DNA of 64,000 nt from Pseudomonas nitroreducens TX1 (lineage in GTDB: Bacteria; Pseudomonadota; Gammaproteobacteria; Pseudomonadales; Pseudomonadaceae). Positions 32,625 through 41,053 of the stretch are shown here, in pieces; within the stretch, counting starts at the first letter, position 1; the number at the start of each line of letters is the position of its first letter. The notes under the pieces are model-generated. The model searched no databases and was not told the DNA's origin. It saw nothing but the letters and a program-made list of their open reading frames with translations. A program made the translations under genes and the position numbers. Where the stretch lies: positions 124,001 through 188,000 of the forward strand of contig NZ_AMZB01000134.1 of NCBI RefSeq assembly GCF_000313755.1. The letters are read 5' to 3'.

Positions 32625-33743
32625 ATGAATGCCCTGCACAGCCTGCAGACGGCGGCGGTCTCTATCCGCTCCGTGCGCAAGGTCTACGGCGACCCGGCCA
32701 GCGGTCCCGTCGCGCTCAAATGCGTCGACCTGGACATCCGCGACAACGAGTTCTTCACCCTGCTCGGCCCCTCGGGCTGCGGCAAGACCACCCTGCTGCG
32801 GATGATTGCCGGCTTCGAGTTCCCCACCTCCGGGGAAATCCAGCTCTACGGCGAAAACATCGCCGACCGCCCGCCGTTCGAGCGCCCGGTCAATACGGTG
32901 TTCCAGCACTACGCGTTATTCCCGCACATGACCATCGCCGAGAACCTCGCCTTCGGCCTGGAATCCCATCCGATGGGCCAGCGCATGAGCCAGTTGCAGG
33001 TCGCCGAGCGCGTCCGCGAGATGCTCGCCCTGGTGCAGATGGAACGCTTCGCCCAGCGCAAGCCGACCCAGCTTTCCGGCGGCCAGCAGCAGCGCGTCGC
33101 CCTGGCTCGGGCGTTGGCGCCGCATCCCAAGGTGCTGCTGCTCGACGAGCCGCTTTCCGCGCTCGACCTCAAGCTGCGCCAGGCCATGCGCGAAGAGCTC
33201 AAGGCGATCCAGTCCAAGACCGGCATCACCTTCATCTTCGTCACCCATGACCAGGAAGAAGCCCTGACCATGTCCGACCGCATCGCCGTGCTCTCCGAAG
33301 GCGAGGTACAGCAGGTCGGCCGTCCCGACGACATCTACGAACACCCGCGCAACCGCTTCGTCGCCGATTTCATCGGCGAGACCAACTTCCTCCCGGCCCG
33401 CGTCGAGAACTTCGACGGCGAGCGCGCGCATTACCGCATCGCTGGCGACCAACTGATCGAGGCCGGCAGCCGCGAAGGCTTGAAGGTCGGCGCCGAGGTC
33501 ACCCTGTCGATCCGTCCGGAGCGCCTGCAACTGGTGGCCGAAGACGCCTTGTCCGCCACGCCCTGCACTGTCGTCCAGCAGATCTACCTGGGCACCGACC
33601 TGCAGTATCAGGTCGAGCTTCAGGACGGCAGCAAGTTGACTGTGCGCGCGCCGAACAGTGCTGGCCAGCGTGGCCGCCTGGTAGCCGGGCAACGCGCCGG
33701 GCTGCTGTTCGAAAAAGGCAGCGCCAGCGTCCTGGTGGACTGA
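32625..33743 (+). CDS. Spermidine/putrescine-type ABC importer, ATPase (PotA-like)
   Basis: 372 residues. Nucleotide-binding domain (about 10-250): Walker A LGPSGCGKTTLL, Q loop VFQHYALFPHMT, signature LSGGQQQRVALARALA, Walker B VLLLDEPLSALDLKLR, switch FVTHDQEEALTMSDR. A C-terminal TOBE domain (about 280-370) is present. The hallmark IADRPPFERPVNTVFQ is typical of PotA/PotG. ATG 32625 has GGAGG at 32613. It is the first gene of the set; permease and binding protein genes follow at 12-, 0- and 21-base gaps. Confidence 0.92.
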   Translation: MNALHSLQTAAVSIRSVRKVYGDPASGPVALKCVDLDIRDNEFFTLLGPSGCGKTTLLRMIAGFEFPTSGEIQLYGENIADRPPFERPVNTVFQHYALFPHMTIAENLAFGLESHPMGQRMSQLQVAERVREMLALVQMERFAQRKPTQLSGGQQQRVALARALAPHPKVLLLDEPLSALDLKLRQAMREELKAIQSKTGITFIFVTHDQEEALTMSDRIAVLSEGEVQQVGRPDDIYEHPRNRFVADFIGETNFLPARVENFDGERAHYRIAGDQLIEAGSREGLKVGAEVTLSIRPERLQLVAEDALSATPCTVVQQIYLGTDLQYQVELQDGSKLTVRAPNSAGQRGRLVAGQRAGLLFEKGSASVLVD

Positions 33744-33755
33744 GCGGAGGTGAGC

Positions 33756-34682
33756 ATGAACCGGTTATCCACAACCTCCGGCAATGCGCTGGAGCGGCGC
33801 CAGGCGCTGCGCAGCTTCCTCGGCGTATCGCCCGCACTGGTCTCCATCGGGCTGTTCCTGATCGTGCCGATCTTCATCGTGGTCAGTTACTCGCTGATGC
33901 AGGCCAACCCCTACGGTGGGGTGAACCCGCACTTCAGCATTGACGCCTACGTCTCGCTGCTGTTCGAGCGCCAGCTCGACGACAGCCTGGCCTTCGCCGA
34001 CTCGTACATGGTGATCGCGCTGCGCTCCATCGGCATCGCCGCGGCGACCACCGTTATCACCCTGCTGGTGGGCTTCCCGGTGGCGGTGTGGCTGGCGATG
34101 CAGCCGGCGCACCGCCGCGGCCTGCTGATCTTCCTGATCACCGTGCCGTTCTGGGCCAACCTGCTGATCCGCACCTATGCCTGGATCCTGCTGCTGCGCG
34201 GCACCGGCGTGGTCAACGGTACGCTGATGAGCCTGGGGGTGATCAACCAGCCGCTGAACCTGCTGTACACCGATGGCGCCGTATTGCTGGGCCTGGTCTA
34301 CACCTACGCGCCCTTCGTCGTGCTGCCGATCTACGCCACCCTCGAGAAGATGGACATGCGCCTGCTCGAAGCCGCCCAGGACCTTTACGCCGGGCGCGTG
34401 CGCACCCTGCGCAAGGTCGTCCTGCCGATCGCCCGTCCGGGCATCCTGGCCGGCGCCATCCTCACCTTCGTTCCGTGCCTGGGCGCGATGATCGCCCCCG
34501 AGCTGCTTGGCGGCGGCACCAAGATGATGCTCGGCAACCTGATCTTCCGGCAGTTCAGCGACTCGCGGAACTGGCCCTTTGGTGCGGCGCTGTCGCTGGT
34601 GCTGATGGGCGCGGTGATGCTGGTGCTGATGTTCTATGCGATGCGCGCCGAACGCCTGCGTATCGCCCGGGGAGGTGAATGA
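33756..34682 (+). CDS. ABC importer permease 1 (PotB-like)
   Basis: 308 residues with six membrane spans (about 30-50, 85-110, 120-140, 165-185, 225-245, 275-295). The EAA loop for ATPase docking is EAAQDLYAGRVRTLRKVVLPIARPGILAG. The MTVPFWANLLIRTYAW-type segment (here ITVPFWANLLIRTYAWILLL) is characteristic of PotB/PotH. GGAGG at 33746 favours ATG 33756 over the GTG at 33750, which overlaps that site. Confidence 0.92.
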   Translation: MNRLSTTSGNALERRQALRSFLGVSPALVSIGLFLIVPIFIVVSYSLMQANPYGGVNPHFSIDAYVSLLFERQLDDSLAFADSYMVIALRSIGIAAATTVITLLVGFPVAVWLAMQPAHRRGLLIFLITVPFWANLLIRTYAWILLLRGTGVVNGTLMSLGVINQPLNLLYTDGAVLLGLVYTYAPFVVLPIYATLEKMDMRLLEAAQDLYAGRVRTLRKVVLPIARPGILAGAILTFVPCLGAMIAPELLGGGTKMMLGNLIFRQFSDSRNWPFGAALSLVLMGAVMLVLMFYAMRAERLRIARGGE

Positions 34683-39520: not shown

Positions 39521-39529
39521 GACCTCACC

Positions 39530-41053
39530 ATGAACCAGAGCCTTTTCGCCGAAGTCGGCAAACACCTGCCCAGCGACCTGTCCAAACCTTTCATCCGCAC
39601 CCCCCTGGGGGGCGGCTACAGCTACGCCGACATGCTGCGCAGCACCTCGCAATTCGCCCATGCCCTGGTGGAACTCGGCGTGCAGCCGGGCGACCGGGTT
39701 GCCGTGCAGGTCGACAAGAGCCCCGAGACGGTCATGCTCTACCTCGCCGTGCTGCGCGCCGGCGCGGTCTACCTGCCGCTCAACAGCGGCTATACCGGTG
39801 ACGAGCTGCGCTACTTCCTCGACGACGCCGAGCCTTCGCTGTTCGTCTGCGCACCGGCCTTCGAGGCCCAGGCCCGCGAGCTGGCGAAAGTCAGCGGCGT
39901 GGCCCACGTGGAGACCCTGGGCGACGCCGGTGACGGTTCGCTGATGGATCGGGTGCACGGCAAGCCGGGGCGCTTTGCCGATGTCGAGCGTGCCGCTGCC
40001 GATCTCGCCGCGATCCTCTACACCTCCGGCACCACCGGGCGCTCCAAGGGCGCGATGATCAGCCACGGCAACCTGGTGTCCAACGCCCGCGCGCTGGTGG
40101 ACGCCTGGAAGATCACCAGCGAGGACTGGCTGCTCCATGCGCTGCCGATCTTCCACATCCATGGCCTGTTCGTGGCCTGCAACAGCCTGCTGATGGCGGG
40201 CGGCTCGATGCTCTTTCTGAGCAAGTTCGATGCCGCGCAGATCCTCAAGCTGCTGCCCCAGGTGAACCTGCTGATGGGCGTGCCGACCTTCTACACTCGC
40301 CTGCTCGACCAACCCGGCCTGACCCGCGAGGCGGTGGCGCACATGCGCCTGTTCATTTCCGGTTCCGCGCCGCTGACCGCCGAGACCCACAAGGCGTTCT
40401 CCCAGCGCACCGGCATGGCGATCCTCGAACGCTACGGCATGACCGAGACCGGCATGAACACCTCCAATCCGCTGGAGGGCGAACGTATCGCCGGCACCGT
40501 CGGCTTCCCGCTGCCGGGCGTCGAGCTGCGCATCACCGACCCGGCCCAGGCCGAGCCGACGCTGCTGCCGCAGGGCGAGCCGGGGATGATCGAAGTGCGC
40601 GGGCCGAACGTGTTCCAGGGGTACTGGCGGATGCCGGAGAAAACCGCCGAGGAACTGCGCGCGGACGGCTACTTCATGACCGGTGACATCGGCTTCGTCG
40701 ACGACCGTGGCTACGTGCAGATCGTCGGCCGCAACAAGGACATGATCATCAGCGGCGGCTTCAACGTGTACCCCAAGGAGCTGGAAGAGATTCTCGACAC
40801 CCTGCCGGGGGTGGCCGAGTCGGCGGTGATTGGCGTGCCGCATCCAGACTTCGGCGAGGGTGTGACCGCCGTGCTGGTGGCCAGCCAGGGTCAGGCGCCG
40901 AGCGAGGCGCAGGTGCTCGCCGCGCTGGACGGCAAGCTGGCGCGCTTCAAGCAGCCCAAGCGGGTGATGGTGGTCGACGCGCTGCCGCGCAACGTGATGG
41001 GCAAGGTGCAGAAGAATGTGCTGCGCGAGCAGTTCAAGGCGCTGTATTCCTGA
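39530..41053 (+). CDS. matB: Malonyl-CoA synthetase (MatB-type acyl-CoA ligase)
   Basis: 507 residues, ANL superfamily. Activates malonate with ATP and CoA. Core motifs: YTSGTTGRSKGAMISHGN (P-loop), LPIFHIHGLFVACN, ERYGMTETGMNTSNPLEGERIAGTVGFPLP, TGDIGFVDDRGYVQIVGRNKD, and the C-terminal catalytic lysine in KRVMVVDALPRNVMGKVQKN. The stretch around MTETGMNTSNP and the Arg in SGSAPLTAETH are close to Rhizobium MatB as I recall it. It closes the co-directional set and is followed by REP elements. Confidence 0.92.
   Translation: MNQSLFAEVGKHLPSDLSKPFIRTPLGGGYSYADMLRSTSQFAHALVELGVQPGDRVAVQVDKSPETVMLYLAVLRAGAVYLPLNSGYTGDELRYFLDDAEPSLFVCAPAFEAQARELAKVSGVAHVETLGDAGDGSLMDRVHGKPGRFADVERAAADLAAILYTSGTTGRSKGAMISHGNLVSNARALVDAWKITSEDWLLHALPIFHIHGLFVACNSLLMAGGSMLFLSKFDAAQILKLLPQVNLLMGVPTFYTRLLDQPGLTREAVAHMRLFISGSAPLTAETHKAFSQRTGMAILERYGMTETGMNTSNPLEGERIAGTVGFPLPGVELRITDPAQAEPTLLPQGEPGMIEVRGPNVFQGYWRMPEKTAEELRADGYFMTGDIGFVDDRGYVQIVGRNKDMIISGGFNVYPKELEEILDTLPGVAESAVIGVPHPDFGEGVTAVLVASQGQAPSEAQVLAALDGKLARFKQPKRVMVVDALPRNVMGKVQKNVLREQFKALYS

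Follow-up and report, generated by a model that had tools for sequence, protein, structure and literature searches.

Operon layout and gene families

The DNA analysed here, a stretch of 64,000 nucleotides from Pseudomonas nitroreducens TX1 (the window), carries at 32625-41053 seven co-directional genes behind a divergent LysR gene. They encode a PotABCD-like ATP-binding cassette (ABC) importer, an amidase-signature hydrolase, malonyl-coenzyme A (malonyl-CoA) decarboxylase (MCD) and malonyl-CoA synthetase (MatB). All open reading frames are intact, and the coordinates and families agree with those of a preliminary description of this DNA:

31461..32375, minus strand: LysR-type regulator, GcvA-like (250 bits, under the GcvA cut-off of 288)
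32625..33743, plus strand: PotA-like ABC importer ATPase (TIGR01187, 365 bits, above the cut-off of 355.6)
33750 (GTG) or 33756 (ATG)..34682, plus strand: PotB-like ABC importer permease (PotB model, 220 bits vs. an equivalog cut-off of 348)
34679..35488, plus strand: PotC-like ABC importer permease (PotC model, 227 bits vs. an equivalog cut-off of 326)
35510..36544, plus strand: PotD-like periplasmic binding protein with an altered ligand pocket (PotD model, 171 bits vs. an equivalog cut-off of 582)
36714..38171, plus strand: amidase-signature hydrolase (NCBIfam PRK07486, 818 bits vs. a cut-off of 465; PF01425, 291 bits)
38201..39520, plus strand: malonyl-CoA decarboxylase, MCD/MatA (PF05292, 333 bits, and PF17408; best PDB match 4ksa, E 7e-136)
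39530..41053, plus strand: malonyl-CoA synthetase, MatB (PRK07514 "malonyl-CoA synthase", 811 bits vs. 558)

The ATPase, both permeases and the binding protein of the PotABCD family are all present together. Intergenic gaps from potA to matB measure, in order, 6, -4, 21, 169, 29 and 9 bp, the last of these separating the adjacent MCD and matB genes (the MatA-MatB pair of the Rhizobium-type mat operon). MCD aligns over nearly its full length with 4ksa, as does MatB with its best PDB match, the malonyl-CoA synthetase 4fuq (E 2e-194). The module had been described as lacking a dicarboxylate carrier, and this holds for MatC, MadLM and tripartite ATP-independent periplasmic (TRAP) carriers among the eight genes at 31461-41053 (NCBIfam/Pfam); elsewhere, however, MadLM does accompany this amidase subfamily (see below).

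We consider it likely that these genes form a LysR-controlled catabolic operon, by which an extracellular malonate amide is imported, hydrolysed to malonate, and converted to acetyl-CoA. The PotABCD-type importer would take up the malonate amide (the direction of transport being part of the prediction), and the PRK07486-type amidase, judged by gene context, would cleave it to malonate and ammonia or a simple amine. By family membership and established chemistry, MatB would convert malonate, ATP and CoA to malonyl-CoA, and MCD would decarboxylate malonyl-CoA to acetyl-CoA. As no further catabolic enzyme is encoded in the operon, hydrolysis probably leaves the nitrogen as ammonia or in a common metabolite; the likeliest substrates, and hence the compounds probably imported, would therefore be malonamate, malonamide or a small and simple N-substituted malonamate. 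The mat operon of Rhizobium comprises MatR-MatA-MatB-MatC, and likewise converts malonate to acetyl-CoA by MatA/MCD and MatB; the operon described here differs in having a GcvA-like LysR regulator rather than the GntR regulator MatR, in the absence of MatC, and in the addition of the PotABCD-type importer and the amidase.

A separable core and two malonate tails

LysR, PotABCD and the amidase constitute a separable core that is paired with either of two interchangeable tails, one of them MCD-MatB. Among 158 Pseudomonadaceae genomes surveyed for the PotD of this operon (E up to 1e-120; PotD in the counts below), MCD and mdcA (a subunit gene of the unrelated malonate decarboxylase, mdc), these were found in 35, 22 and 80 genomes, respectively. 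All 22 genomes with MCD carry PotD, and in 22/22 the two genes share contig and strand, separated by 2.1-2.2 kb (2145-2163 bp in the five pairs for which the distance was computed, the others being read from place tables). In a sample of 25 genomes of the genus, the amidase is present in 21, and 20 encode a single MCD gene approximately 0.5 kb behind it on the same contig and strand; so constant a placement in 20/25 indicates that the arrangement is not due to chance. The four genomes in this sample without the amidase also lack MCD and mdcA.

The distribution of mdcA is the converse. Among the 35 genomes with PotD, mdcA occurs in 12/13 without MCD vs. 3/22 with MCD (Fisher, 6e-6), and within genus g226 in 10/10 without MCD vs. 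0/4 with MCD (p 0.001). At least one of the two malonate routes occurs in 34/35 genomes with PotD vs. 65/123 without (p 2e-7). Nearly all carriers that lack MCD-MatB instead have the biotin-independent mdc system, encoded either elsewhere in the genome or, as in PA7, adjoining the unit; in the clade to which the window belongs, MatB-MCD are part of the operon. Like MCD-MatB, the mdc operon of Pseudomonas (with madLM) completes malonate catabolism, and in PA7 it adjoins the same LysR-PotABCD-amidase unit, but its chemistry is unrelated (it uses an acyl-carrier protein) and it is absent from 19/22 genomes that have MatB-MCD in the operon. The replacement of MCD-MatB by the unrelated mdc system ties the importer-amidase unit to malonate.

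The same separation is apparent at 80 compared loci of the closest amidase relatives (designated by L numbers). The whole arrangement is common to five of these (L002-L006), and a further 12 (L007-L017 and L025) keep the importer and amidase at approximately 77-95% identity, without MCD or MatB. LysR and PotA are visible in 11 of these 12, L013 starting inside the importer at a contig end, while L018 retains LysR and the amidase in the absence of the importer; LysR therefore accompanies PotABCD and the amidase at 16/18 loci (L002-L018, L025). MCD was found nowhere in the 13 genomes of L007-L018 and L025, and mdcA in 13/13, a figure that proves little by itself because mdcA was present in all 23 genomes of that search.

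Genome G011, apparently Pseudomonas aeruginosa PA7, is the only one of the 25 sampled genomes of the genus that has the unit and lacks MCD. The gene order in PA7 is amidase-PotD-PotC-PotB-PotA, followed by the divergent LysR gene, 119 bp, and mdcA (TIGR01110), such that the unit stands head-to-head with the mdc operon; the four genes after mdcA have the sizes of mdcB to mdcE (assigned by size, not searched for singly). In P. aeruginosa PAO1 locus numbering, we take PA0206 to be the importer ATPase and PA0207 the LysR regulator. PA0202 (amidase), PA0203, PA0204 and PA0205 are all decreased in copper-treated P. aeruginosa strain LV (PMC5605626), so that in a relative the genes for importer and amidase respond jointly. 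Malonate decarboxylase is driven by the PA0208 promoter (PMC9765613), and malonate metabolism has been linked to PA0208-PA0214 (PMC6249292). The main text on a PA14 malonate transcriptome (PMC11419262) contains no PA02 numbers, mdc or amidase; it uses PA14 locus numbering, and is uninformative either way.

The amidase subfamily also adjoins malonate genes in other lineages. A Herbaspirillum locus (L041) encodes a DctPQM TRAP carrier, mdcA, the amidase, and further mdc genes (mdcG confirmed); Halomonas organivorans (L072) encodes MCD, MatB, MadL, MadM and the amidase; and an alphaproteobacterium (L060) encodes the amidase, MadL, MadM and MatB. The order MCD-MatB-amidase is found at L053, L113 and L114, MCD-MatB lie approximately 4 kb downstream of the amidase at L127, and Collimonas (L020) has amidase-MadL-MadM. 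L110 and L111 have an additional amidase copy within a gene group divergent from mdc; the group in L110 includes a porin, an M20 amidohydrolase and a major facilitator superfamily (MFS) carrier, and both MadL and MadM of its mdc operon were confirmed. In an amidase tree of 164 rows (FastTree, midpoint root, several inner branches weak), the 17 malonate-linked rows are spread over five places and imply at least eight state changes; this tree excludes short copies from the same genus (L082-L101), loci that duplicate longer ones (L102-L106 and L112), and any match with an alignment of no more than 400 residues. The earlier proposal that MatB and MCD are supplied with malonate by the amidase is thus backed by the exchange of MCD-MatB for mdc, by the head-to-head arrangement in PA7, and by the mdc, MadLM, MatB and MCD neighbours elsewhere.

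An M20 amidohydrolase, mostly with an MFS carrier of the metabolite/H+ symporter-like kind, recurs as a second module beside the same amidase subfamily (L110 12113-16121; L029 7428-12280, with an IclR regulator; L178-L184; L117-L119; L122); in two of these genomes, L110 and L111, it is transcribed divergently from the mdc operon.

The enzymes of the operon are of known kinds, but we know of no earlier case in which they are combined with a PotABCD importer or in which MCD-MatB and mdc replace each other. A literature search, with most subscription journals outside its coverage, returned no paper joining this amidase and importer to malonate. We lean, if only slightly, towards a hitherto undescribed bacterial pathway in which malonate amides are taken up with high affinity via an importer labelled as a polyamine system, cleaved by a dedicated amidase, and passed to either of two unrelated, interchangeable tails, with P. 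aeruginosa PA0202-PA0207 beside mdc as a further instance. The proposed role gives a testable function to an importer-amidase unit that is conserved in many Pseudomonas species (probably including PA0202-PA0206), and hints that malonate amides form a natural pool so far overlooked; the exchange pattern shows two unrelated malonate decarboxylation systems substituting for each other behind one uptake unit.

Importer ligand, amidase substrate and alternative readings

The importer resembles the PotABCD and SpuDEFGH polyamine importers in being a complete ABC importer of the same family, as the preliminary description had it, and PotA exceeds its family cut-off. PotB, PotC and PotD score under their equivalog cut-offs and so are PotBCD-like rather than proven polyamine transporters. 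Aligned with Escherichia coli PotD, the binding protein retains equivalents of W34, Y37, S83, E171, W229, W255 and D257, while E36 is replaced by Gly33, D168 by Ser165, Y85 by Ala, and Y293 by His; the alternative acid position of PotF/SpuE is occupied by Ser231. We take these to be ligand-contact positions, the four acidic ones presumably reading the charges of polyamine amines. As only 2/4 acidic positions are retained, whether the PotD or the PotF/SpuE set is used, a classical di- or triamine ligand is argued against, although the identity of the ligand is not given by this comparison. The usual polyamine label of the importer may be wrong, and the positively charged substrate envisaged in the preliminary description finds no support in a binding protein that has lost two of its four charge-reading positions. 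An AlphaFold model of PotD based on 17 close orthologues was too poor to use (predicted local distance difference test, pLDDT, 48).

An unlikely alternative is that the cargo of the importer is a polyamine, free or conjugated, from which the amidase strips an acyl group, the malonate enzymes being a loose, clade-specific addition. PotA does pass the polyamine cut-off, the closest solved structures to the binding protein are polyamine-binding proteins, the aromatic box is retained together with the two acidic positions, and PA0203 and PA0205 are listed in a review among the components of polyamine transporters (PMC9397018). Such a role is difficult to reconcile with the PotD score, which lies far under its cut-off, with the two lost acidic positions, with an operon that encodes no polyamine catabolic enzyme, and with the mutual replacement of MCD and mdc. 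That the importer instead carries malonate itself (or a malonate complex), with the amidase an accessory for such amides as are encountered, we regard as improbable. MatB and MCD require malonate and the module has no MadLM, MatC or TRAP carrier to supply it, and in L072 and L060 the amidase does stand beside a true malonate carrier; yet importer and amidase remain together without MCD-MatB at 12/13 loci that lack MCD (L007-L018, L025), and since MadLM is already encoded in the mdc operon of L110, that genome would have no need of another malonate carrier. We also know of no PotD-type protein that binds a dicarboxylate. Very improbable, in our view, is that the amidase is a ureidomalonase and that the operon imports ureidomalonate or barbiturate-derived material for conversion to malonate and urea; no barbiturase-type ring-opening gene was found among the annotated neighbours (some neighbours are unannotated, and the search did not extend to the whole genome).

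The amidase itself has Lys86, Ser161 and Ser185, which are invariant across 40 aligned sequences and which we take to be the catalytic triad (Lys, cis-Ser, Ser) of the amidase signature family; its predicted structure has a pLDDT of 91. It is 25-26% identical to malonamidase E2 of Bradyrhizobium japonicum. In that enzyme Arg158, presumably the carboxylate-binding residue, is at +3 from the nucleophile Ser155, whereas here Asn188 is at +3 and Arg187 at +2 (a comparison of spacing, not a residue-level structure alignment). An indole-3-acetamide hydrolase from Alcaligenes was considered as a characterised relative and set aside, as no link to PRK07486 could be demonstrated (PMC4938524). A class-wide sample returned the window's own amidase copy alone (1/276), and 67/69 plasmid-borne amidase matches were below 60% identity.

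Several observations weigh against uptake and cleavage of a malonate amide as the role of the operon. The genome statistics given above take no account of shared ancestry, and one 2.6-Mb genome with PotD at 67% identity (G647) encodes neither MCD nor mdcA. No malonate genes were found in the fetched flanks (up to 10 kb) of the fluorescens-type loci L007-L017 and L025. Fold comparison of the amidase gives close scores for GatA, aryl acylamidase, biuret hydrolase and malonamidase E2, and so yields no substrate signal. In P. aeruginosa, the MdcR iModulon is described as comprising seven malonate decarboxylase subunits and MadL-MadM (PMC10943186); neither the importer nor the amidase belongs to it, and within the reach of that analysis the unit is regulated separately from mdc. 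Most sampled PRK07486 amidases lack a malonate neighbour: those of 60/60 Burkholderiaceae regions (60 of 112 listed places, approximately every second row with a few added by hand) and 17/20 Halomonadaceae regions (all 20 besides L072), 77/80 together, and those at 70/80 of the closest amidase loci, some of which are cut short by contig ends. In Variovorax (L054-L056), the amidase gene follows that of a copper amine oxidase, with an aldehyde dehydrogenase and an AraC regulator also encoded nearby (annotated in L055). These neighbours indicate that the amidase subfamily is broad and has several roles; the malonate role accordingly rests on gene context and the exchange pattern, and not on family membership.

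Regulation and neighbouring features

Two candidate regulatory sites bracket the seven co-directional genes:

32418..32430, no strand assigned: putative LysR operator, palindrome TTAAATTATTTAA, in the LysR-potA intergenic region
41361..41386, plus strand: intrinsic-terminator-like hairpin after matB (terminator scan, 11 pairs), suggested by position only

Across 18 aligned intergenic regions, including that of PA7, the operator core TTAA.TT...TAA followed by an AAATTGA block is recovered as an 80% consensus, with the exact letters of the palindrome varying among relatives (e.g., L004, L008 and PA7). An operator function for TTAAATTATTTAA is putative; a shared box between LysR and potA supports one LysR-controlled promoter for the unit. 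Control of PA7 mdcA by this LysR is not claimed, since inspection by eye did not reveal the box in the 119 bp ahead of mdcA and the MdcR iModulon omits the unit.

The terminator scan of 32000-41700 gave two sites vs. a mean of 5.4 in shuffled sequences. The second, at 40336-40349, is within matB and is the sole site ahead of the matB end; the scan gave none in the 169-bp PotD-amidase gap. We infer that potA to matB are co-transcribed. The PotD-amidase gap contains a GC-rich hairpin (36630-36657), partly kept in six aligned sequences; a regulatory RNA is not claimed there, the fold being barely above shuffles (z -1.4).

In the fluorescens-type loci, the LysR gene has as its tail-to-tail neighbour a gene for a chemoreceptor (methyl-accepting chemotaxis protein, MCP; L012 2839-4896; same cluster in L008-L011, L014 and L025; annotated in the L012 copy only), which could perhaps sense the substrate of the operon. 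A few kilobases downstream of the amidase in loci of this type is a gamma-glutamyltranspeptidase gene (L012 14433-16247; same cluster in L008-L010, L014, L017 and L025), again annotated in the L012 copy only. The window also contains three inverted REP-like pairs (GTAGGAGCGAGCTTGCTCGCGAAC and its complement, 20-28 bp apart) at 30303-30370, 31387-31464 and 41070-41145, two of which flank the LysR-to-matB module.

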